Shown in pieces: positions 5,278-31,589 of a DNA stretch of 33,942 nucleotides. The DNA is from Saliphagus infecundisoli. GTDB lineage: Archaea; Halobacteriota; Halobacteria; Halobacteriales; Natrialbaceae. The stretch covers positions 1 through 33,942 of the forward strand of contig NZ_JAIWHV010000033.1 of assembly GCF_020177375.1 (NCBI RefSeq), in the 5' to 3' direction. The stretch's first letter is position 1; each line of letters begins with the position of its first letter. A program made the translations under genes and the position numbers. The notes under the pieces were generated by a model that saw nothing but the letters and a program-made list of their open reading frames with translations, was not told where the DNA came from and did not search any database.

Positions 5278-5416
5278 GGTCGCGTCGCAAAGTCCGCTAG
5301 ATTTTGCTCCCGATGCCAGAAACATGCTTTAGCCGATGTCCTACGACGCTGTTTAAACGTCGTGCACCCGTTGCATACGATTTTGAAGGAGTGAGAGGAC
5401 GGACACCAGTCGCTAC
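5278..5416 (+). repeat. Long imperfect inverted repeat, left copy
   Basis: About 139 bp that pair, as an imperfect inverted repeat, with 6781-6916. Shared blocks in order (left copy sense) are GGTCGYGTCGCARAGT, TTGCTCCCGA, AAACATGCTT, AGCCGAT, GCTGTTTAAACG, CGTGCACCCG, TGCATACGAT and ACCAGTCGCTAC. The copies enclose the HalOD1 gene and the IS1595 relic. The block contains a short palindrome around GTTTAAAC and a TGCACCC(G)-type palindrome. I do not recognise it as a known IS end. It could be the ends of a composite mobile unit or a duplicated gene tail. Confidence 0.6.
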
Positions 5417-6780: not shown

Positions 6781-6916
6781 GTAGCGACTGGTATCCGCCT
6801 CTCTCCTCCAACATCGTATGCACCGGGTGCACGGCGTTTAAACAGCGTAGTTGGAGATCGGCTGAAGCATGTTTTTGACGTCGGGAGCAACGTCTAGAAA
6901 ACTCTGCGACACGACC
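6781..6916 (-). repeat. Long imperfect inverted repeat, right copy
   Basis: Partner of 5278-5416 in opposite orientation (the matching strand is the minus strand here). Its outer end, the complement of GGTCGTGTCGCAGAGT at 6901-6916, abuts the stop of the deoxyhypusine synthase gene at 6917. In one frame of the minus strand this copy is open over 17 codons to a TAA (VAPDVKNMLQPISNYAV), while the left copy has an extra stop, so a decayed coding tail is possible. Identity between copies is roughly three quarters by eye. Confidence 0.6.
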
Positions 6917-7900
6917 TCATTGTTTGAAGGCATTAGCGACGATTAGCGGAAATACGAGTGTCGCTTCCGCTTCAACTTGCGTGTAGTTCGTATCATTATC
7001 TTTGATTTTTCCCCACGACACTGCCTCGTTCGGTGGCGCACCCGATAGTGATCCATCACCCTCGACACCGGTCGAAATGTATACGACGTAATCCGCACCG
7101 CCCCTGAACAGGTTTGTCATAATAGCGTGATGCTTTGGAACTCCACCACCTACTGCGAAGAGCCCGGTCTCGTCTGCGAGCAGTCCGTTTTCAATGAGCG
7201 AGTCGTAATCATCCAGAATCTCGATACCGACCTCAGAATCGTGACTCTGACGGTAGTAATAAAGGAAATTCCCCACTTCAGCATCAGTCAGGGCCGGGCA
7301 ATAGACGGGAACGTTGTTGTCCGCCGCCTGCTTTAACACCGAGTCTTTGTCGTCAAGCGTATGTCCTAGTTCGCGGGCAAATGCCGTTGGCGTACGAATC
7401 TTCTTCTCTGAGAAGAATTCCTCAAAGAATTCATACAGATATTCCTCAAGCCAGACGTATCGATCTGATGGAACGAAAATATTCCCTAAGCGGTTGATTC
7501 CTCGCTCTCGAAGATCACTCTCGTCTGCGTTCCATTCGCCCATCTTAAACGGCTTTGCTGTTTTGATGACATCCTCCGTTAGCGACCCAGATGTCGTAAT
7601 AAGGACGTCAACAAATCCTTCGCTCACCAAGTAGGCGACGACTTCTCGCAGTCCAGAGGAAACAATGTTCGAGGTGAACGTGAGATAGATCGTCGCATCT
7701 GCATCCTGCATTCGTTCGGCGATGTCGATCGCCTCTGCCAGCTGAGTAGCTTGAAACCCGGTCGTGGCGTACGATTCCAGTAAGTCCCCAAAATCGAAGG
7801 GGCCACGGAAGTCGTAGCCCCGGACGTCAGGGGCATCGATAGTCTCGTCGCTCCCAGGAACGACTTGATCGTGAGTATCGTCTTTGGTCACATTCACCAT
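6917..7900 (-). CDS. dys: Deoxyhypusine synthase
   Basis: A 327-residue protein matching deoxyhypusine synthase. This NAD-dependent enzyme transfers the aminobutyl group of spermidine (or, in archaea lacking spermidine, possibly agmatine-derived groups) to one lysine of translation factor aIF5A. Hallmarks are FTSNIVSSGLREVVAYLV (NAD-binding region), TTSGSLTEDVIK, GVPKHHAIMTNLFRGGADY and the C-terminal NEAVSWGKIKDN, whose lysine corresponds to the covalent intermediate lysine of the human enzyme. Length is normal and no frame break is seen. The gene stands alone between a long inverted repeat (its stop touches it) and an 82-bp MITE upstream. Such a core gene in a repeat-dense region is unexpected; it may be the only copy or a second one. 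Confidence 0.9.
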   Translation of the reverse strand: MVNVTKDDTHDQVVPGSDETIDAPDVRGYDFRGPFDFGDLLESYATTGFQATQLAEAIDIAERMQDADATIYLTFTSNIVSSGLREVVAYLVSEGFVDVLITTSGSLTEDVIKTAKPFKMGEWNADESDLRERGINRLGNIFVPSDRYVWLEEYLYEFFEEFFSEKKIRTPTAFARELGHTLDDKDSVLKQAADNNVPVYCPALTDAEVGNFLYYYRQSHDSEVGIEILDDYDSLIENGLLADETGLFAVGGGVPKHHAIMTNLFRGGADYVVYISTGVEGDGSLSGAPPNEAVSWGKIKDNDTNYTQVEAEATLVFPLIVANAFKQ

Positions 7901-7963
7901 CTTGCATCTGCCAATTTGAATAGCCCGAAGTTTAGCCGATCACGCCAGTGACAGCATATACTC

Positions 7964-8045
7964 ATAGGGTCGGATGTAACTATTTACCGATCGATCGTAC
8001 GACCGTATTGCGATCGGCAGTGCAATGACTTACATCCGACCCTAT
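7964..8045. mobile_element. 82-bp MITE with 16-bp terminal inverted repeats
   Basis: A short non-coding element with perfect 16-bp ends (ATAGGGTCGGATGTAA at 7964-7979, its complement at 8030-8045). It has the same length as the element at 15904-15985 and shares its internal motifs ATTTACCG, GCGATCG and AATGAC. TCA directly adjoins TAGGG on the left and follows CCCTA on the right, which could be a 3-bp target duplication. No coding capacity. It lies between the deoxyhypusine synthase gene and a coding relic. Confidence 0.75.
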
Positions 8046-8058
8046 CAGAGAGCTGCTC

Positions 8059-9363: not shown

Positions 9364-10760
9364 CCATCGGTGTTCGGTTAAGCACTGGGTGGTCTCGTGA
9401 AGGCTTCAGCCACTCGTTCGCTGAGTAAGAGGCGTGATTTCTCTGGTTGACGAGCGTCACGGAACATCAATTCCGACAGGTTCGGCGGTGGATGTCCGAA
9501 CGACTGGGCCAAATCTTCGAGGATGAGCTGGGCGAGAGACCGCAAGGTCCTCGCCCAGCGTTCCCGCGGAAACACCGTCTCGGGAAACAACTCCTGAAAC
9601 ATGCCAAGCAAGGCTCTGCTGACCACAAGCGTCAGCAGAGCCGCCACAACCAGCAGTTCCACGATCGCTGGATCGCTTGTCTGGAACTTCTCCAGCCCGT
9701 ACACTGATTTCAACTCCCGAAACAGCAACTCCACCTCCCACCGCAACCCATACAACGCTGCAACCTGCCGTGGAGTGAACTCATCGGGCAGATTCGTCAC
9801 GTACAGATGGTAGTCGTCGGTGTCCTCGTTGCGGACACCGACGACGCGGAATTCCATCGTGCCGGTTGATTGGTTCCCAGCGTACGCCCGTCGCTTGAAC
9901 GTGATCTCCACAGTCACGTCCACGATCTCACGTCTGAGATCTCCCAGAACGTCCTGGAGACGGCGGTTTGGCAAGGAAATGGCGCGACCACGCCATTTCC
10001 GCCGCTCTCCGACGATCAATGGATTCGCGTTCGACTTCAACCGCGTCAGAAAGACTCCGCCGTTTTCCTCGATCAACGCGAATCGGCGGAAACTGTAGAA
10101 GCCGAGGTCGAACAGCAACAACCGGCCTCGCAGCCAGCTCCCCGTACGGAGCTGGCTGCTCTCCTGAGTGCGCTCATCGGTGAGCTGGAACTGTTCGAGG
10201 CTCTGTGTAGTGGCGTTATGGACGAGATGAAGCTTTGCGCCGGACTGATCGGAGTGAGTCGCGGGAAACTCGCTGAGGAGCCGATGCAACCGGAAGATGG
10301 TTGCATCGGCGATCAGCACTTCGCGGAACAACTCGAACCGTGGAGCGATCGTGTGAGGAACCGCGACCTCCTCGAGAGCGTGCTCGAGGAGGTCGCTCAA
10401 CAATGTCGCAAGTGCTGGTGTGAAGCGGTCGTAGAAGCTGGAGCGAGCAACAGTCTGGTTGGTCGCTGCGGAGTAGGCTCGCTGAAATCCGGCGATGGTA
10501 CGGGCTTCGCCGTCGACGGCGAAGCCCATGATCAGCGTCCAGACGAGCACCGTGATGTCGATTGTGCGTTTGCGCTGAACGACATCTCGCTCGTGCGCGA
10601 TGTCTTCGATAAGCTCTGCTGGAAAGAGAGAAGTCAACCGCCGTCGAATGAGGTCTGGGGAGAGTTCCGTTAGCACAACCTCTTCCCACGCGGTCTACAA
10701 CGATAACGTCATCAACAGAGCGGAGTCTCTTGGTTTCTCAGCTTAACCGAACACCGATGG
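9364..10760. mobile_element. ISH8-type insertion sequence (IS4 family), intact
   Basis: A 1397-bp element with perfect 20-bp terminal inverted repeats (CCATCGGTGTTCGGTTAAGC at 9364-9383, its complement at 10741-10760). The target sequence CCTAAGAA is duplicated on both sides (9356-9363 and 10761-10768); up to 10 bases (with the following CC) could be counted. It lies four codons into the ISH3-type transposase, so the insertion is later than that element. Ends, duplication and transposase are all intact, so it could be active. Confidence 0.93.
9378..10676 (-). CDS. ISH8-type IS4-family transposase
   Basis: A 432-residue DDE transposase filling the ISH8 element. Catalytic pieces are visible: first Asp in VLIADATIF (residues ~118-126), second in LLLFDLGFYSF (~186-196), and the IS4 signature with the Glu in LRWEVELLFRELKSVYGLEK (~305-324). 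The C-terminal ~90 residues form the usual helical tail. No frameshift. The coding sequence holds eight perfect inverted repeats with stems of 10-14 bp (9527-9559, 9612-9642, 9813-9845, 9975-10000, 10130-10159, 10279-10309, 10363-10396, 10502-10527), far beyond chance. The second ISH8 copy at 16442 is only moderately similar in protein sequence. Confidence 0.93.
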   Translation of the reverse strand: MLTELSPDLIRRRLTSLFPAELIEDIAHERDVVQRKRTIDITVLVWTLIMGFAVDGEARTIAGFQRAYSAATNQTVARSSFYDRFTPALATLLSDLLEHALEEVAVPHTIAPRFELFREVLIADATIFRLHRLLSEFPATHSDQSGAKLHLVHNATTQSLEQFQLTDERTQESSQLRTGSWLRGRLLLFDLGFYSFRRFALIEENGGVFLTRLKSNANPLIVGERRKWRGRAISLPNRRLQDVLGDLRREIVDVTVEITFKRRAYAGNQSTGTMEFRVVGVRNEDTDDYHLYVTNLPDEFTPRQVAALYGLRWEVELLFRELKSVYGLEKFQTSDPAIVELLVVAALLTLVVSRALLGMFQELFPETVFPRERWARTLRSLAQLILEDLAQSFGHPPPNLSELMFRDARQPEKSRLLLSERVAEAFTRPPSA

Positions 10761-14499: not shown

Positions 14500-15123
14500 A
14501 TGAACCGAGAACAGCTCACTGACCTCTGGCGTCGATTCGTCCCAGTACACCCGTTACCCTGGGGGCTCGCGATTGGAATTGGTTTGCTGATTACTCTTGC
14601 TGTTGCTGCAAGCACTGATTTGCTCACTCTCCCTACGCTCGAATCCGAGAATGTAAGCGAGTTCATTCGCCAAGCCGACGGGAACGTGCAGTACATCATG
14701 ATTTTCGTAATGGCAGCAGTACCCGTACTCGAAATTCTCATTGTGATTCCCATCGGGATCGGGCTTGGGTTGAATCCTTTTGCAGTAGCTGCATTCGCCT
14801 TTCTTGGGAATGTGCTCCCAATTTACGGAATTATTGTTCTCTACGAACGGCTGAAGACGTGGTGGGAGGACTGGACTGGCTCGCGCTCTGATCCATCAAA
14901 GCAGAAAAAACGAGCACTGGTGTTGTGGAACCGCTATGGTCTTCCTGGTCTTGCGCTCGTCTCGCCAGTCGCGACCGGCGTCCATTTGGCTGCGGCTCTC
15001 GCCCTTACTGTTGGATCGAGGAAACGCTCCGTCGCAGTGTGGATGACTGGTGCTATCGCTCTGTGGACGATTCTGCTCACAGCGGGTACATACTACGGAA
15101 TTGGGTATATTACGGGACTATGA
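14500..15123 (+). CDS. Small multidrug export protein family (PF06695-like)
   Basis: A 207-residue membrane protein with about five helices. The pattern VLEILIVIPIGIGLGLNPF ... FLGNVLPIYGIIVLYERLK ... WNRYGLPGLALVSPVATGVH ... SRKRSVAVWMTGAIALWT fits the COG2426/PF06695 small multi-drug export family, named after weak phenotypic data; the true substrate is unknown. ATG 14500 is preferred to upstream frame extension at 14455 because membrane topology starts after a charged MNREQLTDLWRRF segment. The TrmB regulator divergent to it is the likely controller. Confidence 0.75.
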   Translation: MNREQLTDLWRRFVPVHPLPWGLAIGIGLLITLAVAASTDLLTLPTLESENVSEFIRQADGNVQYIMIFVMAAVPVLEILIVIPIGIGLGLNPFAVAAFAFLGNVLPIYGIIVLYERLKTWWEDWTGSRSDPSKQKKRALVLWNRYGLPGLALVSPVATGVHLAAALALTVGSRKRSVAVWMTGAIALWTILLTAGTYYGIGYITGL

Positions 15124-15189
15124 GAAGATCCAGAACGCAGGTCAGTTAGTTGATCCACCGCGTAACATATGCACTCCGATGTAACGATC

Positions 15190-15334
15190 GGATTTCTCGC
15201 AGTAAGCCCACCTCAGTGGCCCGGCGCGACGCCGCTGCTCGCGATCGGCAGAGAACATGACAGGCAGCGATAGCCCCCATCTCCTGCAGGGCACAGTCCG
15301 CCTCCCCCACCAGTGGCCCCGGGAAGGACTGTGC
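15190..15334 (-). ncRNA. Structured RNA candidate A
   Basis: Transcribed from the minus strand. The 5' stem is 9 bp, GCACAGTCC pairing with GGACTGTGC (15326-15334 with 15291-15299, 26-nt loop), followed at once by CCTGCAGG. Downstream it shares the 16-nt block GATCGCGAGCAGCGGC (complement at 15231-15246) with candidate B, then CGTCGC and a CCAC-TGAG-GTGG hairpin. It also shares 16 identical bases with B in the promoter. No frame longer than a few dozen codons fits this strand. Exact ends are unknown; the 3' end is set near the last conserved block. Confidence 0.6.
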
Positions 15335-15354
15335 GCATGTGTGTCAACGCCGAA

Positions 15355-15362
15355 GGTTATAG
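15355..15362 (-). promoter_or_regulatory. TATA-like box of RNA candidate A
   Basis: CTATAACC on the minus strand, 28 nt before the first base of the stem. Sixteen bases including it (CGCCACGACTATAACC) are identical to the region upstream of candidate B at 18415-18430. The spacing suits an archaeal TATA box with transcription starting at or just before the stem. Confidence 0.55.
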
Positions 15363-15510
15363 TCGTGGCGGTAATTCGAAATGACTCACTCACGAGTAGA
15401 ACGGGCAACTCCATAAGTGAAAAGCCTGTTCTCGGGACGCTAACCATAGGTAGAGCCGATAATGTTGGTGTCCTCGAGACACGAATCGGCGTGTCTGCTG
15501 AGGGAGTATC

Positions 15511-15621
15511 CTAGTCGAGATCTGGATGGCACTTTTCACAGAGCCACTGGGTGTCTTCTCCCGCCTGCCTTTTTCAAACGCGTTCAACTTGGGTCCCGCA
15601 CTGATCACAACGTGCTGCCAT
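15511..15621 (-). pseudogene. Small zinc-finger protein gene with internal TGA
   Basis: A 37-codon frame reading MAARCDQCGTQVERV, TGA, KRQAGEDTQWLCEKCHPDLD, stop. The two CxxC pairs (CDQC and CEKC) form a typical haloarchaeal mini zinc finger. A CGA (Arg) to TGA change would explain the stop, since the frame on both sides is otherwise coherent. Haloarchaea are not known to read UGA as selenocysteine, so it is likely a dead gene. It is too short for standard gene calling. Confidence 0.55.
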
Positions 15622-15903
15622 AGGTCACTCGTGATCTCAGGTGAATATCACTCCACCGCCCTACGGAGTGGTTTTCGCTTCTTGTCGGCTCTCTGTCTAC
15701 AGTGGTCGAAACGTCGAGTGAAGTGGTTGAGTCCCTACGGTGTCAGTCGATCTCGTGAAAAGTACAGTGCTGCTTTATCCTAACTGAACTTTGCGACGCG
15801 ACCCACTCCTCTGCGAAACGGGTGGTGACGTTCATACCAATCGCCACTATCCCGCTTCAACTCCTTTGATCTACTGCCGTACCTCGACACCGCTTAGTGA
15901 TTC
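15622..15903. other. Non-coding stretch
   Basis: About 280 bp with no supported gene. At 15788-15803 is ACTTTGCGACGCGACC, the complement of the GGTCGCGTCGCAAAGT motif that begins the long inverted repeat at 5278. CCACCGCCCTACGGAGTGG (15656-15674) could form a short hairpin. Confidence 0.4.
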
Positions 15904-15985
15904 ATAGGGTCGGTTACAACGATTTACCGTTCGGTCGCGTCACCGTGTTGCGATCGACGGTGTAATGACTTGTGACCGACCCTAT
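15904..15985. mobile_element. 82-bp MITE, second copy
   Basis: Same length and design as the MITE at 7964-8045. Ends are ATAGGGTCGGTTACAA and, complemented on the right, ATAGGGTCGGTCACAA (15 of 16 match). Internal ATTTACCG, TTGCGATCG and TAATGAC blocks are conserved between copies while other positions differ. As in the first copy, TCA flanks TAGGG on the left and CCCTA on the right. Non-coding. Confidence 0.75.
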
Positions 15986-16016
15986 CAATGGACCCGATTT
16001 CCCGGCCGGAATGGGT

Positions 16017-16154
16017 TTAGTCGTCGTCGCTACGGCGGGTACCGACGCGTCGTGCAATATCGCTCCAGAATTCTGTCCACCATTGTGGGCCAGAACGCAG
16101 TCGCGATCCTTCGATTTGTTCTCGTTCAGTGTCTTGATCAGTGTGAGTTGCCAT
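16017..16154 (-). CDS. Small hypothetical protein, 45 aa
   Basis: A 45-codon frame (MATHTDQDTEREQIEGSRLR ... WWTEFWSDIARRVGTRR, acidic end SDDD). It lies 61 bp after the 71-aa membrane protein gene on the same strand and could be its distal partner. Charged, with one Trp-rich amphipathic helix and no family I recognise. The longer frame to 16268 is less likely. Weakly supported: no ribosome site is evident. Confidence 0.35.
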   Translation of the reverse strand: MATHTDQDTEREQIEGSRLRSGPQWWTEFWSDIARRVGTRRSDDD

Positions 16155-16215
16155 TGTAGGGCTCTCGATTGGTAGCTGCCAGTTAGTGACCTGGCGGTAT
16201 AAGTACCGGGTCGGT

Positions 16216-16431
16216 TCACCAGATGAATCCAATCGAGAGCCCGATTGCGAGGAGACAGAGCCCGACAATGAGCAGTAATTGCGTTACTAGGAGGAACGTA
16301 GCGTAGCCCGCGATCACCGTCTCATTCTCATCAATCCACGTGCCGTAATCCTGGACTAACTGCTCGAGCCATTCCCGGTTAGATGCCCGTTGTGCGAGCA
16401 ATTCTTGACCGTGTCTTGGTTGAGTGCCCAT
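16216..16431 (-). CDS. Small membrane protein, 71 aa, probably 5'-truncated by ISH8
   Basis: A 71-residue protein whose first ~40 residues are hydrophilic (helical, ASNREWLEQLVQDYGTWIDE) and whose C-terminal third is one long hydrophobic span (YATFLLVTQLLLIVGLCLLA then IGLSIGFIW). The ATG is only 2 bp from the end of the second ISH8 at 16434, so either the gene has lost its original start and promoter or it is now read from the IS. The family is not recognised. Confidence 0.5.
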   Translation of the reverse strand: MGTQPRHGQELLAQRASNREWLEQLVQDYGTWIDENETVIAGYATFLLVTQLLLIVGLCLLAIGLSIGFIW

Positions 16432-16433
16432 TG

Positions 16434-17826
16434 GTCTTTAGCTAAGCCTCAACAGTCGGTTGGATGGTGGTAGCGAGCTGTTCCTGGAGGATTGGTCGTT
16501 GCTGGTGGATCTTCTGAGCGTCGTCGATCAGTCGCTGTAGCAGTGGTGGCGGTGAGTAGGCGAGATATTCCCTCAGTTCACGGAGGATGAGCTGGGCGTG
16601 CGACCGGAAGGTCGCCGCCCAGCGCTCCGGCGGGAACACCGTCCCTTCATCAGCGTGTTCTCTGACCAGACCAAGCAAATCACGGCTCACGACCAACGAT
16701 AACAACGCTGCGTACAGCAGAATCTCCACGATATGCTTCTTCGTCGTGTCGAACTCATCCAGTCCGTACTGTGTCTTGAGTTCGCGGAACAGCAACTCTA
16801 CCTGCCATCGACACCGGTAGATCGTCGCGAGATCAGCTGGGTAAAACTCGTCTCGAGAGAGGTTCGTGATGTACAGATGGTAGTCGTCGGCGTCCTCGTT
16901 GCGGACGCCGACGACGCGGAACCGTTTCGTATCCCGTGACTGCGTCCCCTCGTACTCCCTCCGATCGAACTCAACCTCGACTTCTACGTCGATGTACGTG
17001 CGTGAGAGATCGTCTACGATGTCGAAGATTTTCTCGCCCTCCAAGGGGATGGCGCGACCGCGCCATCCTCGTAGTTCATCCGTCACAACCGGGTTTGCGC
17101 TCCGTTTCAACCGGCTCACGAAGTAGCCGTCGTTCTCGTCGATCAACGCGAAGCGTCGGTACTTGAAGTACGCAAGATCGAAGATCGCTAGCCGTCCTTC
17201 CAGCCACGATCCCGTCTCAAACTCTGTACTGTCGTGCGTTTTCTCGTCTGTGACGCTGAAGCGTTCGACCGTCTGGTCGGTGACGTTATGGAGCAGGTGG
17301 AGCGACGCTCCAGCCTGCTCCTCATGACGTGCTGTGTACTCCTCGGAGAGCAACTCGTGCAACCGGAGAACAGTTCCATCAGCGATCATCACGTCTCGAA
17401 AACGGTCGAACTCCTTAGAAACAGTGTGAGGGACAGCGACCTCGTCGAAGCCGTACTCGACGAGGTCGCGGAGGTACTCTGCGAGTGTCGGCGTCAACCG
17501 CTGATAGAACCCTCCCGGAGAGAGCGACTCGTCGGCAGTGGAGTTGTAGCTGCGTCTGAAGGCTGCAAGCGTTCGGCTTTCGCCCGTGGCGAAGCCGAAC
17601 GCGAACGACCAGACAAGTGGTGGGATCTGAAGCTTCCCCTCGCGCTCGACCACGCCGACCGAATCGGCGTGGTCTTCGAGCGCTTCAGAAGGAAGGAGGT
17701 TAGTGAGACGACGTTCAATATGACGTGAGGAGGCTTTGGTGTACACAGCTATCGCCTCCTCATTCCTTCCGAAAAGATGTCCCGATAAGCTGCCGCTGTC
17801 ATGCGGTTCTTCGCTTAGCTAAAGAC
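16434..17826. mobile_element. Second ISH8-type insertion sequence
   Basis: A 1393-bp element with perfect 14-bp terminal inverted repeats (GTCTTTAGCTAAGC at 16434-16447, its complement at 17813-17826). The terminal sequence differs from the first ISH8, so this is a different IS of the same group. No target duplication is visible (GTGCCCATTG on one side, GGATGACCCC on the other), which suggests a deletion or recombination after insertion. Confidence 0.85.
16442..17746 (-). CDS. ISH8-type IS4-family transposase, second copy
   Basis: A 434-residue intact IS4-family transposase. Catalytic Asp residues lie in VMIADGTVLRL and LAIFDLAYFKY; the signature with the Glu is CRWQVELLFRELKTQYGLDE. It aligns along its whole length with the 9378-10676 protein but with many substitutions. 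Like that gene it carries long perfect hairpins (16591-16623, 16893-16925, 17047-17068, 17436-17469, 17570-17601 with one bulge, 17642-17688). Three of these sit at the same protein positions as in the first copy, with paired nucleotide changes. Confidence 0.92.
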   Translation of the reverse strand: MYTKASSRHIERRLTNLLPSEALEDHADSVGVVEREGKLQIPPLVWSFAFGFATGESRTLAAFRRSYNSTADESLSPGGFYQRLTPTLAEYLRDLVEYGFDEVAVPHTVSKEFDRFRDVMIADGTVLRLHELLSEEYTARHEEQAGASLHLLHNVTDQTVERFSVTDEKTHDSTEFETGSWLEGRLAIFDLAYFKYRRFALIDENDGYFVSRLKRSANPVVTDELRGWRGRAIPLEGEKIFDIVDDLSRTYIDVEVEVEFDRREYEGTQSRDTKRFRVVGVRNEDADDYHLYITNLSRDEFYPADLATIYRCRWQVELLFRELKTQYGLDEFDTTKKHIVEILLYAALLSLVVSRDLLGLVREHADEGTVFPPERWAATFRSHAQLILRELREYLAYSPPPLLQRLIDDAQKIHQQRPILQEQLATTIQPTVEA

Positions 17827-18422
17827 GGATGACCCCTGGTGTTAGATGCAGGAGTAGGTCGTGCACGTAGATGATAGATACCATCAGTCATAGTAGTGTT
17901 GATGGCGACCCGCCGAATTTCCCACGAATCTAGGTCGGGCTGCCACCGTAGGGCAACTCAGACCGGAGGACGATTCTCGCTTTTAGTACTCGCGGCTACA
18001 GAGCCTTCCAGGTCTCGTGTTGGTGCTCAGCTTTGCACGTTGATCTGACGACAGATTCCCCGTCTAAACATCCCCGAGAGGACGTCTATTGATGAGGTTT
18101 CTCAGTAGGGAACCAACGAGCTGTTCTTCGCAGGAGTGAGTCTCCTGTATTTTCGCAGCGGTCAGCGCGTCGTCGAAGTGGTCGGTTGCTCACGTGACCT
18201 CGAGATACCTGTTCAACAGCGAGTCTACTCCTGGTTCGACAAGTTGAACTGTAGGTCATCTACCGTGAAAAGCTGAGATTGAGGTTTTCATTGAGAAAGA
18301 GATGAGCACCGTTCCGACACAGATGAAACTCCGGTGTAGATAGTCGGTCCGTCGTACGTGTCTCATTAGCGGGTGAAAACGCCAAGATTATGGGTTAACT
18401 CTGGAGGGCGCTATCGCCACGA
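17827..18422. other. Non-coding stretch with IS end remnant
   Basis: About 600 bp without a supported gene. CTCAGCTTTGCACGTTGA at 18026-18043 equals, with one mismatch, the left terminal repeat of the IS701-type element at 25473, but what follows is unrelated, so it is a solo end. Between ~18160 and 18360 short frames read vaguely like transposase (ending FIEKEMSTVPTQMKLRCR) but cannot be assigned. A 7-bp inverted repeat, TGGAGGG/CCCTCCA (18402-18408 and 18429-18435), brackets the TATA-like box of RNA candidate B. Confidence 0.45.
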
Positions 18423-18430
18423 CTATAACC
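18423..18430 (+). promoter_or_regulatory. TATA-like box of RNA candidate B
   Basis: CTATAACC, 29 nt upstream of the first stem base. Part of a 16-base block identical to the one upstream of candidate A. A 7-bp inverted repeat directly flanks it and could be an operator. Confidence 0.55.
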
Positions 18431-18451
18431 CTCCACGTGAGTCACCTACAT

Positions 18452-18633
18452 GCGCGTCCCTGGTCGTCATGGTAATCTAGGGGCGTGTCCTGTACGTACT
18501 CGGGGCGGGATCTCCCCTCCCGTCCCACCCCATGCTCTCTAGTTGATCGCGAGCAGCGGCAGTATCAAAAACGTCGCCCCTGGTTCACATAGGGGGTGGG
18601 ACGGGACGACGAACACGTTATGCGATGTCGACC
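18452..18633 (+). ncRNA. Structured RNA candidate B
   Basis: Stem one is 18452-18463 with 18477-18488 (GCGCGTCCCTGG against CTAGGGGCGTGT, several GU pairs). CCTGTACGTACTCGG follows, a 15-nt block identical in candidate D. Then come a G-rich/C-rich hairpin, the GATCGCGAGCAGCGGC block shared with A (18545-18560), and a terminal hairpin (CGTCG 18572-18576 with CGACG 18607-18611, then an unpaired C/A and three GC pairs). Its loop holds CACATAGGGGGTGGG, identical in C. TCCCGTCCCACCCC (18518-18531) is perfectly complementary to 18593-18606, so the terminal loop can form a pseudoknot or an alternative fold. ATGCGATGTCGACC after it is also shared with C (one change). The TRAM-domain protein gene lies ~450 bp downstream. 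Confidence 0.65.
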
Positions 18634-18868
18634 TCTGTGATTAACACTCTGGACCAGTTGCGGTTGATACCGGTTTCAGTATATGTTCATCAAGAACTGC
18701 GTAGAGGCTCAGTTTCGCGAGTGTGATTTGATCATCGAATCCTGACTTCCTTTGATAAGGGAACGACTTCTGTATAACTCCGCTTTGTGGCATCTGGCCC
18801 GGGATGCGAGAGAGAACAGTGATTTACTGTACCCGACAGACTTATTACCTTTCATGACTGTTATTTAC

Positions 18869-18931
18869 ATGCACGGATCCACAAGTTGCGTCGCATTCAC
18901 ACACTACCGTGCACCCTACAGGCGGACCTAA
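18869..18931 (+). CDS. Possible leaderless 20-aa ORF before a terminator
   Basis: ATG 18869 to TAA 18929 encodes 20 residues (MHGSTSCVAFTHYRAPYRRT). A TTATTA box lies ~27 nt upstream (18842-18847), the classic distance for a leaderless haloarchaeal transcript, and a terminator-like hairpin begins inside its last codons. The unit would make an ~80-nt transcript. It may be a tiny protein gene, a leader, or a small RNA in which the frame is accidental. Confidence 0.3.
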   Translation: MHGSTSCVAFTHYRAPYRRT

Positions 18932-18948
18932 GCCATCCGCCTGTTTTT
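18919..18948 (+). terminator. Hairpin plus T-run terminator
   Basis: A perfect 8-bp stem (CAGGCGGA 18919-18926, TCCGCCTG 18936-18943) with a 9-nt loop, followed by TTTTT. Archaeal termination mainly needs the T-run; the hairpin is an added sign. It would end the short unit starting near 18869, ~140 bp before the TRAM gene. Confidence 0.6.
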
Positions 18949-19087
18949 GCTGCTGATCATCTCTGAACTGCGTTCGTTAGTGTCCAAGAGGTGGAGCTGT
19001 ATCGACCGACCTCCGCAATGGTTCGGTTTCCGAGATGACGCCCTGTGGTCACCAGTAGACTCAAGGTGATGGTTGGATGAGAATCGA

Positions 19088-19525
19088 ATGGAAGATTTCA
19101 GTATGGAGGTACCTGAAGAGTTGCTCTGTCTGTTCAGTGCCGAGGTTGAGGCCGATGGCGACTCGTATCGAATCGAGATTCCTGCTCGAGAGGTCACCGA
19201 GGGTGATCTCCAACTAGGAGAGGCCTATCGCGTCGCACTGCTTGCATCTGATTCTGATTCTGGCTCATCAGCCCATGAGACGACCGGGCAATCATCCGAA
19301 TCCAGTGCACGTGATCCACCGATTGCAGAGGGTGATCGCCGGATCGTCGATATCGACGATATCGGCAAGCGAGGGGATGGTATCGCCCGTGTCGAGCGGG
19401 GCTACGTGGTCATCGTTCCGGAGACCGAGATCGGCGACCGGGTCAAGATTGAAATCGAGAACGTCCAGGAAACGCTCGCCTTCGGCGAGGTCATCGAACA
19501 TGTTGACCCCACCGTCCACGAGTGA
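19088..19525 (+). CDS. TRAM-domain RNA-binding protein
   Basis: A 145-residue protein. Residues ~1-55 form a small N-terminal module common in haloarchaeal homologues (MEVPEELLCLFSAEVEADGD ... IEIPAREV ... GEAYRVALL). A Ser-rich linker follows, then a C-terminal TRAM domain (DIDDIGKRGDGIARVERGYV then VPETEIGDRVKIEIENVQET), a beta-barrel that binds RNA. Stand-alone archaeal TRAM proteins have been described as RNA chaperones resembling cold-shock proteins. The start at 19088 is preferred over TTG 19073. It is convergent with the TBP gene and downstream of RNA candidate B and the small terminator unit. Confidence 0.85.
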   Translation: MEDFSMEVPEELLCLFSAEVEADGDSYRIEIPAREVTEGDLQLGEAYRVALLASDSDSGSSAHETTGQSSESSARDPPIAEGDRRIVDIDDIGKRGDGIARVERGYVVIVPETEIGDRVKIEIENVQETLAFGEVIEHVDPTVHE

Positions 19526-19592
19526 CTGATGGGGCTTCCAAGCTAGCGAACCCTCTCGGCTAGCGAGGAGTCCATCTCCGAGTTCACAGATG

Positions 19593-20153
19593 CTACTCGA
19601 GCAATCCAAGATCGTCTAATCGTGCGTGAACCGCAGTAATCGCATCCTCGGCATCGCTTGGCTGAGTTCCACCGGTGATGACGAGTTTCCCACTGCCGAA
19701 CAGCAAGACGACGACGTCCAGTTCGTCGGCCCGATAGACGAGTCCGGGGAACTGTTCGGGTTCGTACTCGACGGCCTCCAATCCGAAGCCGATCGCGACT
19801 GCGTTGAGATTGAGCGACGTGCCGAGATCACCGCTTGTCACGATGTTCTGGACCGTAACGTCTGGCTCCTCTGGGACATTAAGACCCAATCGACGAAGTT
19901 TCTCGAACGTCTGCCCGACTGCTGTCGACAAGTCCTCGACTGACGAAGCACCGGTACAGACGATCTTCCCTGAGCGGAAGATCAGTGATGCAGCTTTCGG
20001 ATCGGTCGTTCGCGAGACAACCCCTGGGAATTGATCTGGCTCGAACGAGGCGCCGTCGAGATCGTCCGCAAGCGACTCGAGATCGAGTTCCTGGTCGATG
20101 CTCGTCGACCCGACGACGTTCTCCGTCGAAAGTGTCTCTGTAAGGTCTCCCAT
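19593..20153 (-). CDS. tbp: TATA-box-binding protein paralogue
   Basis: A 186-residue TBP with both saddle repeats. Repeat 1 contains GASFEPDQFPGVVSRTTDP and SLIFRSGKIVCTGASS; repeat 2 contains AVEYEPEQFPGLVYRADELD and VLLFGSGKLVITGG. IVTSGDLG and LDDLGLLE close the match to haloarchaeal TBPs. It acts with TFB to place RNA polymerase on promoters. Haloarchaea often carry several TBPs, some on megaplasmids, to switch gene sets; this one departs from the usual in acidic substitutions at the N-terminus. It is divergent from a PadR regulator, with ~190 bp between. Confidence 0.93.
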   Translation of the reverse strand: MGDLTETLSTENVVGSTSIDQELDLESLADDLDGASFEPDQFPGVVSRTTDPKAASLIFRSGKIVCTGASSVEDLSTAVGQTFEKLRRLGLNVPEEPDVTVQNIVTSGDLGTSLNLNAVAIGFGLEAVEYEPEQFPGLVYRADELDVVVLLFGSGKLVITGGTQPSDAEDAITAVHARLDDLGLLE

Positions 20154-20345
20154 CCCTTTTGATAGGGCTGCCTGGAACCGATATTAATCTGCTGTTGTAC
20201 GGTAACCGCGTTCCCGCTCGGTCCGCAAGATGTGGCTTGGTGAAACACTCCGTTGTGGGAGATAGTCAGCTGAATTCAGGTGAATTTGGCTAATCTGACG
20301 GTCAAGATCGAGTGTATTTATTGGTAGGAGAACTGAGTCGCGAGT

Positions 20346-20645
20346 ATGTTGGCCGATCTGACCGGGTTTCAGCGTGACCTCTTGTTCGTCCTCAGCGGGT
20401 TGGGGACGCCGAGTGGAAGCGAACTCATGAGCAAGGTCGAACAATCGCAGGATCGACCGGTCCTCCATGGGCGCCTCTACTCAAATCTAGACGACCTTGT
20501 CGAGGCAGGATACATCGAGAAGGGGGAGCTCGACGGACGGACGAACTACTATGCACTCACCGATGAGGGGTACGAGAAGCTCCGGGCTCGCCACGAGTGG
20601 GAGCAGGAGCATCTCGAGGCGCCGTCAACTGCTGACGCCGACTAA
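20346..20645 (+). CDS. PadR-family transcriptional regulator
   Basis: A 99-residue winged-helix protein of PadR type: LTGFQRDLLFVLSGLGTPSG opens helix 1, a recognition helix precedes GRLYSNLDDLVEAGYIEKGE, and the wing is DGRTNYYALTDEGYEKL. The short C-terminus is an acidic helix, probably for dimerisation. It is divergent from the TBP gene; regulation of tbp or of itself is possible. The ATG follows a short leader, GTCGCGAGT. Confidence 0.85.
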   Translation: MLADLTGFQRDLLFVLSGLGTPSGSELMSKVEQSQDRPVLHGRLYSNLDDLVEAGYIEKGELDGRTNYYALTDEGYEKLRARHEWEQEHLEAPSTADAD

Positions 20646-20711
20646 CGAACACAGCCCTGTTACCACCTGTTGAAGGGTGTCAAAACGGCAGGGGCTGTGA
20701 CTGGCTGGTGA

Positions 20712-21689
20712 CTACGAGGTCCCGATCTCCGTTCCCGGACTGAACTCGGTTAGCTGCTCAATCCGCTGTTCGAGCTCGTCGACTTCCTCACGGAGGTCCT
20801 CAGCTTCAGGCTCGTCGCTCAATGCGAGCTGGTCTTTGAGTCCTTGGAGCCGGCTCTGTTTGGTTTCCTCGTCGACGTCGGCTTTGCGGACGTACTCTCG
20901 CTCGTCGATCTCGTAGACGGCCGAGTCGGACAGTTCGGTCACGTCGAGTGCTTCGTCGACCTTCTCTCGGTCGACGGCCATGACGCGTTCGCGAGCGATA
21001 CCTTCCTCCTCGAGGACGCGGAGCACTTTGTCATCGTCCTTGAGCGAACGATTTCGACGGGTCGTCCGCTGAACCGACCCGTACTGGCCGTGAACCGGCT
21101 GGTCATGGTGCAGCCGGTCGAGGAGGATCTCTCGGACCTCTGTGCGGAGATCGCCTGCGTTGCGTTGGACGTCCGAGAGCAGCGTGTAGAGGTTGATGAG
21201 TACGGGCGTCTCCCACTCGTCGAACGCAGCGGGGTCATGACGTTCGAGCGTATCGATCAGCAAGAGCATGTCGGCGTAGACGTCGAGATCCGGTTCGGTC
21301 CGATCCTGGTCGCCATCACTCGACGGGGTGGCCCCGGTGATGAGCTGGGAGGTGGTCGGCTCGTCGGTTTCGGTGAGCGTCTCGGCTCGCGTGTCACACT
21401 CGTAGCGAGGATGAAGGCTCAAGACGGCAGCGTAGGGTTCGGCATCGGGCGGAAGACGCTGGAGTTGGAAGGTGCCGCTGGCGTCGGAGATCCGGTCGGC
21501 CAGCGTTGCGAACTGGTCGCGTTTGAGGGGTTCTTTGTCGCCTGCCTTGGTTTCCGTAATCACGATGCGGTGCTCCTGGACGTCGGTGATCCTGAACTCG
21601 GTCTCTGTGAGCGGGGTGACGAGGGTCGCCTCGTCGTCGAGGGCGTCGCACTCGTCGAGGAGCGTATGCCAGCTCGTTCCAAACGGCAT
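20712..21689 (-). CDS. Hypothetical haloarchaeal protein with coiled-coil C-terminus
   Basis: A 325-residue acidic protein. The N-terminal ~70 residues form a beta-rich module (TEFRITDVQEHRIVITETKA, KRDQFATLADRI) similar in feel to small DNA- or nucleotide-handling modules. The middle is helical (YADMLLLIDTLERHD, VLINLYTLLSDVQ), and the end is a coiled coil (EEDLREEVDELEQRIEQL-like heptads). Start MPFGTSW at 21689 replaces a longer frame to 21755. I believe it belongs to a family seen on haloarchaeal plasmids but cannot name a function. It is convergent with the PadR gene. Confidence 0.65.
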   Translation of the reverse strand: MPFGTSWHTLLDECDALDDEATLVTPLTETEFRITDVQEHRIVITETKAGDKEPLKRDQFATLADRISDASGTFQLQRLPPDAEPYAAVLSLHPRYECDTRAETLTETDEPTTSQLITGATPSSDGDQDRTEPDLDVYADMLLLIDTLERHDPAAFDEWETPVLINLYTLLSDVQRNAGDLRTEVREILLDRLHHDQPVHGQYGSVQRTTRRNRSLKDDDKVLRVLEEEGIARERVMAVDREKVDEALDVTELSDSAVYEIDEREYVRKADVDEETKQSRLQGLKDQLALSDEPEAEDLREEVDELEQRIEQLTEFSPGTEIGTS

Positions 21690-21852
21690 AGCAGAGTGTG
21701 GGGTCTGGGGACCAAAACATCTTGCTTGTGACGGTAGAGTGGCTGATCTGACCACTCGATTTCGTCGGGGAGTGTTCCGTCCTCTTTTGAGACAGATCTC
21801 GCGTTACATTTGGGTGCGCAGGTGGCGACATAGCGATCTTCGGGTATCTCCG

Positions 21853-22659
21853 TCAGAAGAGCCCGATAATGAATCCGAGGCCCATGATAGTGAGGACGAC
21901 GGCGGAGAACATGGGAAGATAGGGCGTGTACCGCTCGACTCGTTCTTCGGAGTGTTCGTAGCCCGCGATCAATAACATCGTCAGGCCAACGATTCCGAGG
22001 ATAACCGTAAGTGCATAGGCGGTCATCAGTTCGAGGCAGTATGGCGAGCCAGCGCAGAGGGCGATGATTTCAAACTCTTCTTCGTGGGCGAATCCGAGAA
22101 CGAACGCGAACCACGCGATCCCGAGGAGGCCGCGGTCCGCCGAATCGTCAAGCGTATCGTGGGAGTGCTCGTGCCCGCCGAGAAACGGAATCCACACGGT
22201 GAGCCGACTGAATCGACTCTTATCGTTGTGCTCATGTGAGTGCTGGTGTTCGTCCTCGTGATCATGCTCGTGCTCGCCACTGTGTTCGTGGGAATGATCG
22301 TCGTGACCGTGTGAGTGGCCGTGGAAGTATTCACGGATTCCGAGCGCGATGAGTAACACGCCAGCGACGAGACTGACTGGCCCGCCGATTCGGACGTCTC
22401 CGAAGAGCACGACCGGTTCGTTGACCTGTGTGAGGTTGAAATAGGATTTCGCGTAAAAGAACACTGCCACCATCGCGATGCTACTGACGAGGTGGCCGAC
22501 GCCGATGATGAAACTCGCAGCAAAGCCGTAGAGCCACTTGTTCGTCTGGTCGAGCGCATACGAGGCAGCCACGGGCCATCCGTGTCCGGGTTCGACTCCG
22601 TGGACCGCCCCGAGAGCAATCGCCCCGGCAAAGAGTCCGAGATTGTCGAGATACACCAT
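21853..22659 (-). CDS. NicO/RcnA-like nickel-cobalt transporter
   Basis: A 268-residue membrane protein of about six helices. The N-terminal GAVHGVEPGHGWPVAASYAL carries the HxxxPGH motif of the NicO/UreH/RcnA family. A long loop between helices (residues ~110-150) is extremely His-rich with alternating Asp/Glu, a metal sink or sensor typical of RcnA-type exporters. The later half has GIAWFAFVLGFAHEEEFEII, which repeats the His motif. The likely role is Ni/Co efflux or uptake across the cytoplasmic membrane. ATG 22659 directly precedes the first helix. No metal-responsive operator is evident. Confidence 0.88.
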   Translation of the reverse strand: MVYLDNLGLFAGAIALGAVHGVEPGHGWPVAASYALDQTNKWLYGFAASFIIGVGHLVSSIAMVAVFFYAKSYFNLTQVNEPVVLFGDVRIGGPVSLVAGVLLIALGIREYFHGHSHGHDDHSHEHSGEHEHDHEDEHQHSHEHNDKSRFSRLTVWIPFLGGHEHSHDTLDDSADRGLLGIAWFAFVLGFAHEEEFEIIALCAGSPYCLELMTAYALTVILGIVGLTMLLIAGYEHSEERVERYTPYLPMFSAVVLTIMGLGFIIGLF

Positions 22660-22811
22660 CCGTACGGCGATATTCCGAAGACGATCGGTTTATGGATTGT
22701 TACTACCGAATCGGTGGAATCGTCATAACACGGGGCTCAATTCGAGAACAAGCGTCGATATCTCTACTACGAGTGGAAGAAAATGTGCCGAACTCATCAA
22801 CCACACATCGT

Positions 22812-22847
22812 GTAGTGCCCGTGGAGACAGTACTGGGGGTGCACTAC
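22812..22847. other. Hairpin upstream of the nickel transporter gene
   Basis: GTAGTGC and GCACTAC (7 bp perfect) flank ~22 nt. On the plus strand CCTGCGATC follows, as after the stem of the structured RNAs, and ACACATCGT precedes. However, the CTAT box at the usual distance is absent and the region runs into a coding gene at 22864. It may be a degenerate sixth member or an unrelated leader structure of the minus-strand transporter mRNA. Confidence 0.35.
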
Positions 22848-22863
22848 CTGCGATCGGAGCGCC

Positions 22864-23259
22864 TCAGCACATCATACTCGTCTGTTCAACGAGTCGCTTG
22901 CAACGGATAGAGATGAGTCCAACCGGCATATCGTCTGCGGGAAGATAGACATACTCGCCGTATTCGTCGTCAAGCAGTGATTCGATAAATGCCGGCTCGT
23001 CGGTTCCCGTCACCATGACGAGCGGGTGAGTGGGGTGGGACTGCCGAAACTCCTCGTACAACGTGGGTGCATCAGCGACCTCCTCTGCGACGATCGCGAC
23101 GACACAGTCTCCGTTAGTGACAGCGTCGGGATCGGGATGGGGGGCAAAGCTAGTGATCGTCTTGACGGTAAGACCGGACGTGTGGTCGATCAGTTGGTCC
23201 GCGATTCGCGTCCCGTTCCGGCCGACGGTCGCGAGTGTGAGTTGCACCGGTCCATCCAT
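22864..23259 (-). CDS. Hypothetical protein, possible degenerate receiver-like domain
   Basis: A 131-residue protein. Alternating beta and alpha segments (VQLTLATVGRNGTRIADQLI, GDCVVAIVAEEVADAPTLYE, HPLVMVTGTDEPAF, YGEYVYLPADDMPVGLISIR) recall a receiver/Rossmann-like fold, in particular degenerate receiver domains of haloarchaeal regulators. A phosphoacceptor Asp in the expected place is not clear (TNGDCVVA is the nearest). The start MDGPVQLT at 23259 is preferred over 23319. It stands upstream of the nickel transporter on the same strand with ~200 bp between. Function unknown. Confidence 0.55.
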   Translation of the reverse strand: MDGPVQLTLATVGRNGTRIADQLIDHTSGLTVKTITSFAPHPDPDAVTNGDCVVAIVAEEVADAPTLYEEFRQSHPTHPLVMVTGTDEPAFIESLLDDEYGEYVYLPADDMPVGLISIRCKRLVEQTSMMC

Positions 23260-23480
23260 AGAGCGCGTAATTCTCTCCAGATGCTTGTATACGGGCCTTC
23301 CTGGGAAAGTAATAACCAATGGATAATAACATGTTTTCTTATTGTCAATTAATTAAAACTGTTACGAATTCAATGCAGAACGAACAGGGCGCCTTATCAC
23401 CTGCAAGCGGCCTCAATGGAGCTAAACCTCTATCTGACTTGGCCGGTCCAACGGGAGAGGTAGCCATATAACCCACACAT

Positions 23481-23488
23481 CTATTACT
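23481..23488 (+). promoter_or_regulatory. TATA-like box of RNA candidate C
   Basis: CTATTACT, 30 nt before the stem of candidate C. An alternative ATATAACC at 23467-23474 resembles the A and B boxes more closely in sequence but sits 44 nt away, so the spacing favours 23481. Confidence 0.4.
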
Positions 23489-23510
23489 TTCCCCTGGTTA
23501 CTCCCTGAGC

Positions 23511-23693
23511 GCACGACCCGATCTGAAGGCACACGGGACCAGAGGGTCGTGCTGCCATTCAGAGGCACACCACCGACGGGCGGGCCACCACCGCCCGCTC
23601 GTTTTCTGGAAGCAGTCAGAACCACGGAAACTCGTCGCCCCGGATGCACATAGGGGGTGGGTGGGGCAACGAGTGCGATATGCGATGCCGACC
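23511..23693 (+). ncRNA. Structured RNA candidate C
   Basis: Stem one: GCACGACCC 23511-23519 with GGGTCGTGC 23544-23552. Second hairpin: CGGGCGG 23577-23583 with CCGCCCG 23591-23597, loop GCCACCA. Terminal hairpin: ACTCGT 23630-23635 with ACGAGT 23669-23674, an unpaired C/A, then GCCCC with GGGGC; the loop holds CACATAGGGGGTGGG (23647-23661), identical to B. The terminal stem sequence differs from B on both strands yet keeps pairing and the same C/A mismatch. ATGCGATGCCGACC closes the similarity. No coding frame is credible here. It lies between two regulatory genes. Confidence 0.65.
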
Positions 23694-23892
23694 CGAGTGG
23701 TTCCAAGGCCGACACTATACCCATATCTCCAATGCCCATTAGTAATGGGTCCGAACAAACGAACTGAAGTGACCATTTAGAGTAAGATATAGTTACCACG
23801 GCGATCTAAATGGATCTAACACAACTTGGCGACTGTCTCGAGATCGGAATTGACTTGCAGTATCGTGGGAAAAGAATACTATACTAACTCAT

Positions 23893-24141
23893 ATGCAAGA
23901 GTCGAAGCAGAAGTTAGCAGAGATGCCTCCGAGTTCCAAGCTTGTGTATATCGTACTGCAACACGAGGAAGCATTGACCCAGAAGAAACTGGCTGAAGAG
24001 ACGCGGCTTTCAAAACGTACGATTCGGTATGCATTGCAGCAGCTCGAATCAACTGGGCTGGTTGAAGAAGACATCTACATTCGAGATGCGCGACAGAATC
24101 TGTATCGACTATCCGAATCGAACTGTACTGCATGTGGGTAG
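23893..24141 (+). CDS. Winged-helix DNA-binding protein
   Basis: An 82-residue single-domain regulator. PSSKLVYIVLQHEEALTQKK opens the winged helix, then LAEETRLSKRTIRYALQQLE gives the recognition helix and GLVEEDIYIRDARQNLYRL the wing. This is the common haloarchaeal MarR/ArsR-like small wHTH type. The C-terminus has a CTAC pair that could bind metal only with a partner. An AT-rich ACTATACTAA stretch just upstream suggests a promoter with a very short leader. It is flanked on both sides by the structured RNA segments; a regulatory link is possible but unproven. Confidence 0.75.
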   Translation: MQESKQKLAEMPPSSKLVYIVLQHEEALTQKKLAEETRLSKRTIRYALQQLESTGLVEEDIYIRDARQNLYRLSESNCTACG

Positions 24142-24254
24142 AGAGCAGCATATATCGATAGATCCGATTTCAACGGAGAACGCCGGGGGCGGCCTATCAG
24201 TTGGGTAGCTGTTGAGTCAGCGTGTTGAGCCAGAGTGGACGACTACCGACGCTG

Positions 24255-24386
24255 CCGGTCCGAGCTATGAGATGCAAGATCTGAGTCTGGTAAATCCGAT
24301 CGGGCTGGGTTGGGATTCAGCCCGATCTAAAGCCCTTGCAGGTGGCACAGCCCGGGGAACGGTTGGACAGGCTAACCCAGGCCGTG
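24255..24386 (-). ncRNA. Structured RNA candidate E
   Basis: Minus strand. Stem one: GCACGGCCT with GGGCTGTGC (24378-24386 with 24345-24353, two GU pairs), then CCACCTGCAAGG. Second hairpin: a perfect 10-bp stem, GATCGGGCTG/CAGCCCGATC (24298-24307 and 24318-24327), 10-nt loop. The 3' part CATCTCATAG-CTCGGACCGG aligns with the terminal-loop region of B and D. Its CTATACTC box is at 24409-24416, 30 nt upstream. The most diverged copy with a clear first stem. Confidence 0.5.
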
Positions 24387-24408
24387 CAAGCAAATAACAC
24401 ACGTGCGG

Positions 24409-24416
24409 GAGTATAG
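24409..24416 (-). promoter_or_regulatory. TATA-like box of RNA candidate E
   Basis: CTATACTC on the minus strand, ~30 nt before the stem of E, the same distance as in the other members. Confidence 0.4.
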
Positions 24417-24559
24417 ATCTGATGTTTCCCATCGGACAGTAGGGGGTATGACTGTCGTTGATCGCACTTGGTCGAAACAGGTAGGAGTCAAGAACGACAC
24501 CCTGCCCGATCGGATGTCCGCTGAGAGAGGGCATGGTCCCGTCATGCCAGACGGTCCCC

Positions 24560-24732
24560 TTGAGAACCGTGCCCTCCGATTATGAACTTTCGAGGAAAAT
24601 AGGTCTGTGGATATGATACTCACTCGTCGTCGATCTAATGGACAGGAACGGGTGAGGTATGGGACTCACCTGACCGAGTACGTACAGGGCACGGCTGGGA
24701 CGCCGTGTATGGCTGATAAGCGTCAGCCGTGC
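24560..24732 (-). ncRNA. Structured RNA candidate D
   Basis: Minus strand. Stem one: perfect 9 bp, GCACGGCTG/CAGCCGTGC (24724-24732 with 24689-24697), followed immediately by CCTGTACGTACTCGG (24674-24688), identical to B. Second hairpin: GGTGAG/CTCACC (24651-24670). GATCG and AGTATCA blocks align with B, and TTCATAATCGGAGGGCACGG aligns with the terminal-loop segment of B. Between this and candidate E a further imperfect stem-loop (24526-24576) is present and may belong to D. The region has no supported protein gene on either strand. Confidence 0.6.
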
Positions 24733-24753
24733 GGATGGCCATCAGCCGCGAAG

Positions 24754-24761
24754 ACGGATAG
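24754..24761 (-). promoter_or_regulatory. TATA-like box of RNA candidate D
   Basis: CTATCCGT on the minus strand, 29 nt before the stem of D. As a TATA box it is weak, so the position carries more weight than the sequence. Confidence 0.35.
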
Positions 24762-24851
24762 ATGTGGGGATTTGGACCAAGAGGGGAGACAGTGGACCCA
24801 ACACGTCCGCACTGATAGTAAGCGTCTCACCACGGAGGGATTCTCGAAATA

Positions 24852-27598: not shown

Positions 27599-27645
27599 CC
27601 TTGTGCAACACGCTTTTTGGAAATGCGCCCCATTGTTGCACAAGG
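27599..27645. promoter_or_regulatory. 12-bp inverted repeat before the 50-aa gene
   Basis: CCTTGTGCAACA (27599-27610) and its perfect complement TGTTGCACAAGG (27634-27645), 23-nt spacer. The right arm ends 3 nt before an ATG, and its AAGG may serve as ribosome site. The same 12 bases recur as an inverted repeat at 31540-31589, with different spacer. It could be an operator, a partition or replication site, or the ends of a tiny MITE. Confidence 0.6.
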
Positions 27646-31539: not shown

Positions 31540-31589
31540 TACCTTGTGCAACATAGCTTTGTGAGTGAGAACGTTTGTTGCACAAGGTA
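31540..31589. promoter_or_regulatory. 14-bp inverted repeat, second CCTTGTGCAACA site
   Basis: TACCTTGTGCAACA (31540-31553) and TGTTGCACAAGGTA (31576-31589), perfect, 22-nt spacer. The inner 12 bases equal those of the site at 27599-27645; the spacers are unrelated apart from GCTTT. The two sites bracket the small-gene operon and parA. Confidence 0.6.

Follow-up and report, generated by a model that had tools for sequence, protein, structure and literature searches.

A family of about 31 putative small structured RNA genes in the haloarchaeon Saliphagus infecundisoli

Five non-coding segments (A to E) in the 33,942-nt stretch of Saliphagus infecundisoli DNA analysed here (the window, labelled contig C26 in a 4.53-Mb genome assembled as 76 contigs) belong to a genome-wide family with a common fold, and are best read as paralogous, independently transcribed structured small RNAs, most likely trans-acting sibling regulators. 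We put the probability of this reading at roughly 0.6, the regulatory role being a proposal. That the members are RNA genes is strongly supported, on the basis of the covariation of their stems and the placement of a promoter box upstream of them. The parts of the five window members are as follows:

15359..15362, minus strand: putative CTAT promoter box of A, at -28 from stem 1, inside CGCCACGACTATAACC, which A shares with B
15190..15334, minus strand: RNA gene A, tied to the family by alignment, with no covariance-model report
15334-15326/15299-15291, minus strand: stem 1 of A
15290-15280, minus strand: linker of A, CCTGCAGGAGA, then the second hairpin
15231-15246, minus strand: GATCGCGAGCAGCGGC in the 3' domain of A, which runs on to GGGCTTACTG
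18423..18426, plus strand: putative CTAT promoter box of B, at -29 from stem 1
18452..18526, plus strand: core of B, with stem 1 at 18452-18460/18480-18488
18489-18501, plus strand: linker of B, CCTGTACGTACTC, then stem 2 with a C-rich loop, to 18526
18551..18611, plus strand: chimeric 3' part of B, GAGCAGCGGC (common to A), then a hairpin at 18572-18611
23481..23484, plus strand: putative CTAT promoter box of C, at -30 from stem 1
23511..23606, plus strand: core of C, with stem 1 at 23511-23519/23544-23552
between stems 1 and 2, plus strand: linker of C, a mini-hairpin TGCC...GGCA
23577-23601, plus strand: stem 2 of C, then TTTTC at 23602-23606
23631..23673, plus strand: 3' hairpin of C, with the conserved G-rich loop GGATGCACATAGGGGGTGGG
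24758..24761, minus strand: putative CTAT promoter box of D, at -29 from stem 1
24649..24732, minus strand: core of D, with stem 1 at 24732-24724/24697-24689
24688-24676, minus strand: linker of D, CCTGTACGTACTC, then stem 2, to 24649
24413..24416, minus strand: putative CTAT promoter box of E, at -29 from stem 1
24297..24387, minus strand: core of E, with stem 1 at 24387-24379/24353-24345
24327-24319/24306-24298, minus strand: stem 2 of E, preceded by the linker CACCTGCAAG and followed by the T-rich ATTTAC

All five segments were recovered where the original prediction had placed them, the 5' ends of stem 1 agreeing to the base (15334 for A, 24732 for D and 24387 for E on the minus strand, 18452 for B and 23511 for C on the plus strand), and the four exact blocks said to link them pairwise are present at the claimed lengths: 16 nt twice between A and B (CGCCACGACTATAACC and GATCGCGAGCAGCGGC), 15 nt between B and D (CCTGTACGTACTCGG), and 15 nt between B and C (CACATAGGGGGTGGG). 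The description of five copies in 10 kb holds for the window, but the family is spread over the whole genome, with about 31 members. BLAST searches of the genome with C alone or with B alone retrieve further members (down to E=2e-35 and E=5e-14, respectively), and a covariance model built from 27 members (R2, following R1, built from 8) recovered 30 members on the own-genome contigs fetched. A pattern scan independent of the covariance models, combining a CTAT-like box, a 9-bp GCAC/GTGC stem and a following hairpin, points to mostly the same sites. Segment A is absent from the covariance-model output at the thresholds used; it was counted as a member because its whole length can be aligned with C60, C27_27737 and C12, and because its own stem covaries, which brings the probable total to about 31 (30 model matches and A). 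The genome thus carries several homologous RNA genes of the kind termed sibling sRNAs. Atypical or partly decayed forms number two or three (C18_39998, C29_28632, C24_2757); the members on C12 and C11 score low, yet keep the promoter box and the layout. Arrays occur, with three members within 450 nt on C27 and pairs on C19, C18 and C29, and the copies on C25, C37 and C59 are three segmental copies of recent common ancestry.

The common core consists of a 9-bp stem 1 (GCAC.../...GTGC), a linker, and a 9-bp stem 2 that closes a C-rich loop; a short T/C run often comes next. In the 30-member alignment, 94% of the cells are paired and 14 of the 18 pairs show two-sided changes, with 69 two-sided cells against 19 in shuffles, counts that overstate independence since the members are akin and the alignment was itself fitted to the structure. 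None of 500 shuffles equalled the observed value on any of five measures, and shifting the partner by a single column lowers pairing from 94% to 46%, so that the proposed selection on RNA structure, read by the original prediction from paired changes in the stem, is upheld. Stem 1 alone, taken from hand-cut and ungapped arms of 17 distinct stems, is 98% paired, with 17 two-sided cells against 4.5 in shuffles. MAFFT misaligned the stems of mixed subtypes, and the loops were therefore N-padded, for the seed model only. G-U cells outnumber A-C cells (52 vs 14 overall, 27 vs 3 in helix 1), an asymmetry that the preference of the covariance-model aligner for G-U over A-C inflates, and this excess is what folding of the promoter strand as RNA would lead one to expect. 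The folding energies of single sequences are unremarkable (z of +0.9, -1.6, -1.5, -2.3 and -2.1 for A to E), and the case for the family thus rests on covariation and promoter placement rather than on stability. Loop lengths vary without reading-frame periodicity. C accounts for 51% of the bases in loop 2 and for about 30% in loop 1 and the linker; this richness could be a by-product of the G-rich and C-rich arms of the stem. Anti-SD action of the LhrC/csRNA type would call for an accessible C-rich (UCCC-like) or anti-SD sequence, for which loop 2 may be a candidate.

The CTAT box had been predicted 28-30 nt from the stem, and it indeed starts at -28 (A), -29 (B, D, E) or -30 (C). Across the family, CTAT starts between -40 and -27 in 21 of 31 members, 20 of them between -28 and -30, while other 14-nt bins hold 0-2 occurrences; most of the remaining members carry TATA-like variants (ATTAT, CTTTT, CGTAT) at the same position. 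The haloarchaeal TATA motif has been reported as TTWT with an upstream BRE (PMC4983044), against which CTAT is a plausible promoter box and not the consensus. At the other end, T makes up 48% and C 36% of the three bases that directly follow stem 2 (as in TTTTC or CTTTC), and the intergenic terminator motif that predominates in Haloferax volcanii is a T-stretch followed by C (PMC7237163). From the distance to the promoter box and the match of the T/C run to this motif, the RNA would be expected to start at or near stem 1, and in types 1 and 3 its end should come after stem 2. Further upstream, five members have a 47-bp palindrome, CCTTGTGCAAC-N-GTTGCACAAGG, its end lying exactly 46 nt upstream of stem 1 in four of them and 53 nt upstream in the fifth. 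In this subset of members the palindrome may be a regulatory site, but it is also present next to protein genes, eighteen such palindromes having been found altogether.

By linker, the alignments show four groups: type 1 (TGCCTGTCAGAGGCAC, in which a small hairpin is possible), type 2 (CCTGTACGTACTC), type 3 (ACCTGCAAG), and a fourth, mixed one that includes A. The type 2 linker occurs exactly seven times in the genome, every time within a family member, and is identical among these seven members, although they differ in stem 1 (67%) and loop 1 (54%). A search for antisense targets of the linkers made none evident: the rest of the genome contains no exact full-length complement, and near-matches are at about chance level. 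Downstream of the core, one 3' domain (GAGCAGCGGCG...GGGCTTACT) is carried by A, C60, C27_27737, C12, C37 and C59, and partly by B and C25; another, a hairpin with GGATGCACATAGGGGGTGGG, is found in C, C29_10649, C24_1896 and B, and is decayed in C19. The 3' part of B joins the first half of the former to the latter (its hairpin at 18572-18611 has the G-rich loop common to C), and this combination shows that 3' domains have been exchanged between members. Some members have long 3' domains of greater complexity than is usual for sRNAs, a point against the favoured reading.

Under the favoured reading, transcription would begin at stem 1 or a few nucleotides from it, directed by a TATA-type promoter box 28-30 nt upstream, and would yield a core RNA of about 95-105 nt made of stem-loop 1, the linker, stem-loop 2 with its C-rich loop, and a T/C run as possible terminator, some members extending into a 3' domain to reach about 170-230 nt. 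The stems would hold the RNA in shape, and the exposed linker and C-rich loop would touch mRNAs or an RNA-binding protein, and differences in promoters and upstream elements would place the copies under different conditions of expression.

Sampled over the first 20 kb of each contig, GC content exceeds 65% on contigs totalling about 2.7 Mb and is lower on the other 1.8 Mb or so. Every member but one lies on contigs with a sampled GC of at most 62.6%. The low-GC part is probably plasmid, to judge from its GC, the sizes of its contigs and the genes on them (ParA, transposases, extra TBP/TFB). The exception, C11:268397-268489, adjoins a winged-helix gene on an 847-kb contig of 70% GC, and is taken as chromosomal. 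Neighbouring proteins are varied (ParA, HTH regulators, glycosyltransferase, MatE, formate transporter, TFB, TBP, TRAM, transposases and unknown genes), and in an all-against-all comparison none of them proved a constant partner. A PadR-like gene is shared by five loci, of which three are segmental copies, and otherwise only small sets recur. As no partner gene recurs, the members are regarded as stand-alone RNA genes, and the suggested tie to TBP/TRAM genes finds no support, since other members adjoin diverse genes. An omega RNA of the TnpB/IS200 type was rejected, as no adjacent tnpB was seen among the neighbouring proteins scanned, which were a part of all neighbours. A MITE or another IS-derived repeat was likewise rejected: inspection of the alignments showed no terminal repeats shared by the copies and no target duplications, the similarity being confined to the promoter and the RNA.

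Beyond this genome, searches with the covariance models gave no convincing match, either with R1 in 125 genomes of the family and 392 of the order, or with R2 in 391 genomes of the class and 41 genomes of relatives. These amount to about 1,000 whole-genome searches over overlapping sets, in which the genus was represented by its own genome alone and in which sets of more than 40 genomes had few candidates scored per genome, so that very divergent homologues may be missed. The search proposed by the original prediction returned 30 members at home and nothing convincing in relatives, and the homologues it called for outside the window are many in the own genome, with none beyond it in the data searched. 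Two outside matches (G005, E=0.007; G064, E=0.08) had neither promoter box nor linker and were judged chance. BLAST of one type-1 member found nothing convincing in 100 relatives, and BLAST of the chromosomal copy returned only weak matches to unrelated, seemingly coding sequence, mostly to the region upstream of the RNA. BLAST against plasmid records gave no homologue, five RNA patterns and one palindrome pattern had no match in viral contigs, and a scan of 257 Gb for the 16-mer TGCCTGTCAGAGGCAC gave 40 scattered matches, below chance expectation. Rfam 15 contains nothing that reaches the gathering score in the window, in agreement with the initial statement that no haloarchaeal RNA class is known to have such a layout. 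With an E-value threshold, the sole non-overlapping match within 15000-24800 was a sub-threshold sbcD at 17532-17684, in a transposase, and related loci gave one off-target sR2 match. No box C/D or H/ACA model of Rfam matched over members in the sequences scanned, and archaeal RNAs of these classes were set aside.

Could the linker instead bind a protein? The lack of a full-length complement elsewhere in the genome makes this a serious rival. The RNAs would then be scaffolds or cofactors of a ribonucleoprotein, perhaps encoded once elsewhere, with the linker and stem 1 binding the protein and the copies serving as decoys, variants or components. Its appeal lies in a linker that stays invariant while the stems covary, and in the elaborate 3' domains of several members, which bear hairpins of their own; loop 1 and linker types nevertheless vary between subfamilies, no protein gene recurs beside the members, and matches to defence systems near them are weak or unspecific, which leaves this explanation rather unlikely, though it deserves attention. 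Broader in scope is the tentative idea, against which we would still wager, that the family represents a new archaeal RNA class, a large, modular, plasmid-carried and lineage-private set with exchangeable 3' domains and its own regulatory or ribonucleoprotein system.

The original prediction also raised a selfish RNA-encoding repeat, which would spread among plasmids and keep its structure as needed for its own copying. It would fit the concentration of some 31 divergent copies on low-GC contigs, the grouping of members in twos or threes as arrays and the exchange of 3' modules, and copies have indeed spread by segmental and array duplication; the idea is nonetheless weakened to the point of being improbable by similarity that spans promoter to RNA end without terminal repeats, target duplications or an associated enzyme, by an old divergence with compensatory changes, and by absence from the relatives searched, whereas a mobile element would as a rule have spread. 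Cis-acting leaders or operators of adjoining genes appear very improbable: three members precede a phiH1-repressor/PadR-like gene by about 260 nt, but D and E point toward the small HTH gene that flanks them, A and the gene downstream of it converge, and tandem members each have their own promoter. That these are not RNAs but DNA hairpins, serving for instance in recombination or replication, is hardly credible; the presence of inverted repeats on mobile DNA might suggest it, but the G-T/A-C asymmetry and a promoter box at fixed distance speak against it.

Sibling small RNAs, the favoured reading, have bacterial parallels. The csRNAs of Streptococcus (CiaR regulon; PMC3091779) likewise comprise several homologous sRNAs per genome with two stem-loops and a conserved unpaired stretch after stem-loop 1, but are bacterial, CiaR-driven and carry anti-SD/anti-AUG sequences, whereas the haloarchaeal family has far more copies, an archaeal-type promoter and no evident sequence relation to them. 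LhrC of Listeria also consists of multicopy siblings of similar length, whose stem-loops bind ribosome-binding sites; it is bacterial, with known targets and no 3' domain swapping described, and its seven members were the highest sibling number in a 2021 review (PMC8079631). Another example is FopS of Bacteroides thetaiotaomicron (PMC11697453), a large paralogous family dispersed in the genome, possibly through phage-mediated spread, which differs by its 14 members, conserved 5' seed and protein partner RbpB from about 31 members in an archaeon, mostly on low-GC contigs and with strongly covarying stems. Closer in lineage, sRNA132 and s479 of Haloferax volcanii are stand-alone haloarchaeal sRNA genes, but are described as individual RNAs. 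The family is thus of the multicopy-sRNA kind, yet belongs to neither the csRNAs, LhrC nor FopS, and no archaeal multicopy sRNA family with such a layout was found in the literature searched, which was largely without subscription papers. Why do plasmids require so many copies? The alignment, covariance model and promoter rule are ready, making expression, targets and protein partner directly testable, and, if the reading is true, the family, with about 31 siblings, would exceed every other such set in the literature searched, and would apparently be the first in Archaea.

In RNA B, the family member at window positions 18452-18633 (plus strand), CCCGTCCCACCCC (18518-18530), located 3' of the stem-2 loop, is perfectly complementary over 13 nt to GGGGTGGGACGGG of the 3' hairpin (18593-18605), so that B could adopt two mutually exclusive folds. 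Genes for a TBP and a TFB of their own are present on the low-GC contigs (window 19593-20153; 736-1698 of L115, another sequence of the same genome), and RNA family members lie close to each of these genes.

In 1.17 Mb of the S. infecundisoli genome there are 18 copies of a 47-bp palindrome composed of CCTTGTGCAAC, about 24 nt and then GTTGCACAAGG. RNA genes are found 46-53 nt downstream of five of the 18, and several palindromes are followed after 3-4 nt by the start codon of a small protein that recurs (N-terminus roughly MTPPTAP-SLPDYIA). Sites include:

27599-27645 and 31542-31587, window
L114:3182-3228, L115:3291-3337, L116:1169-1216, L154:19601-19647 and L100:8973-9020, sequences of the same genome beyond the window

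The window also harbors further repeats and transposase-like genes:

5278-5395 and 6799-6916, 118-nt inverted repeat
7962-8047, 15902-15987 and also 5252-5277, short repeats whose ends are TCATAGGGTCGG.../...CCGACCCTATCA
9378-10676 and 16442-17746, related transposase-like genes

The inverted repeat, whose arms are 84% complementary and spaced 1.4 kb, is directly adjoined by the deoxyhypusine synthase gene (6917-7900). The two transposase-like genes share blocks D1 and D3 (72-87% identical), and the second matches Pfam DDE_Tnp_1. The short repeats (79% identity) look like a small transposable element.
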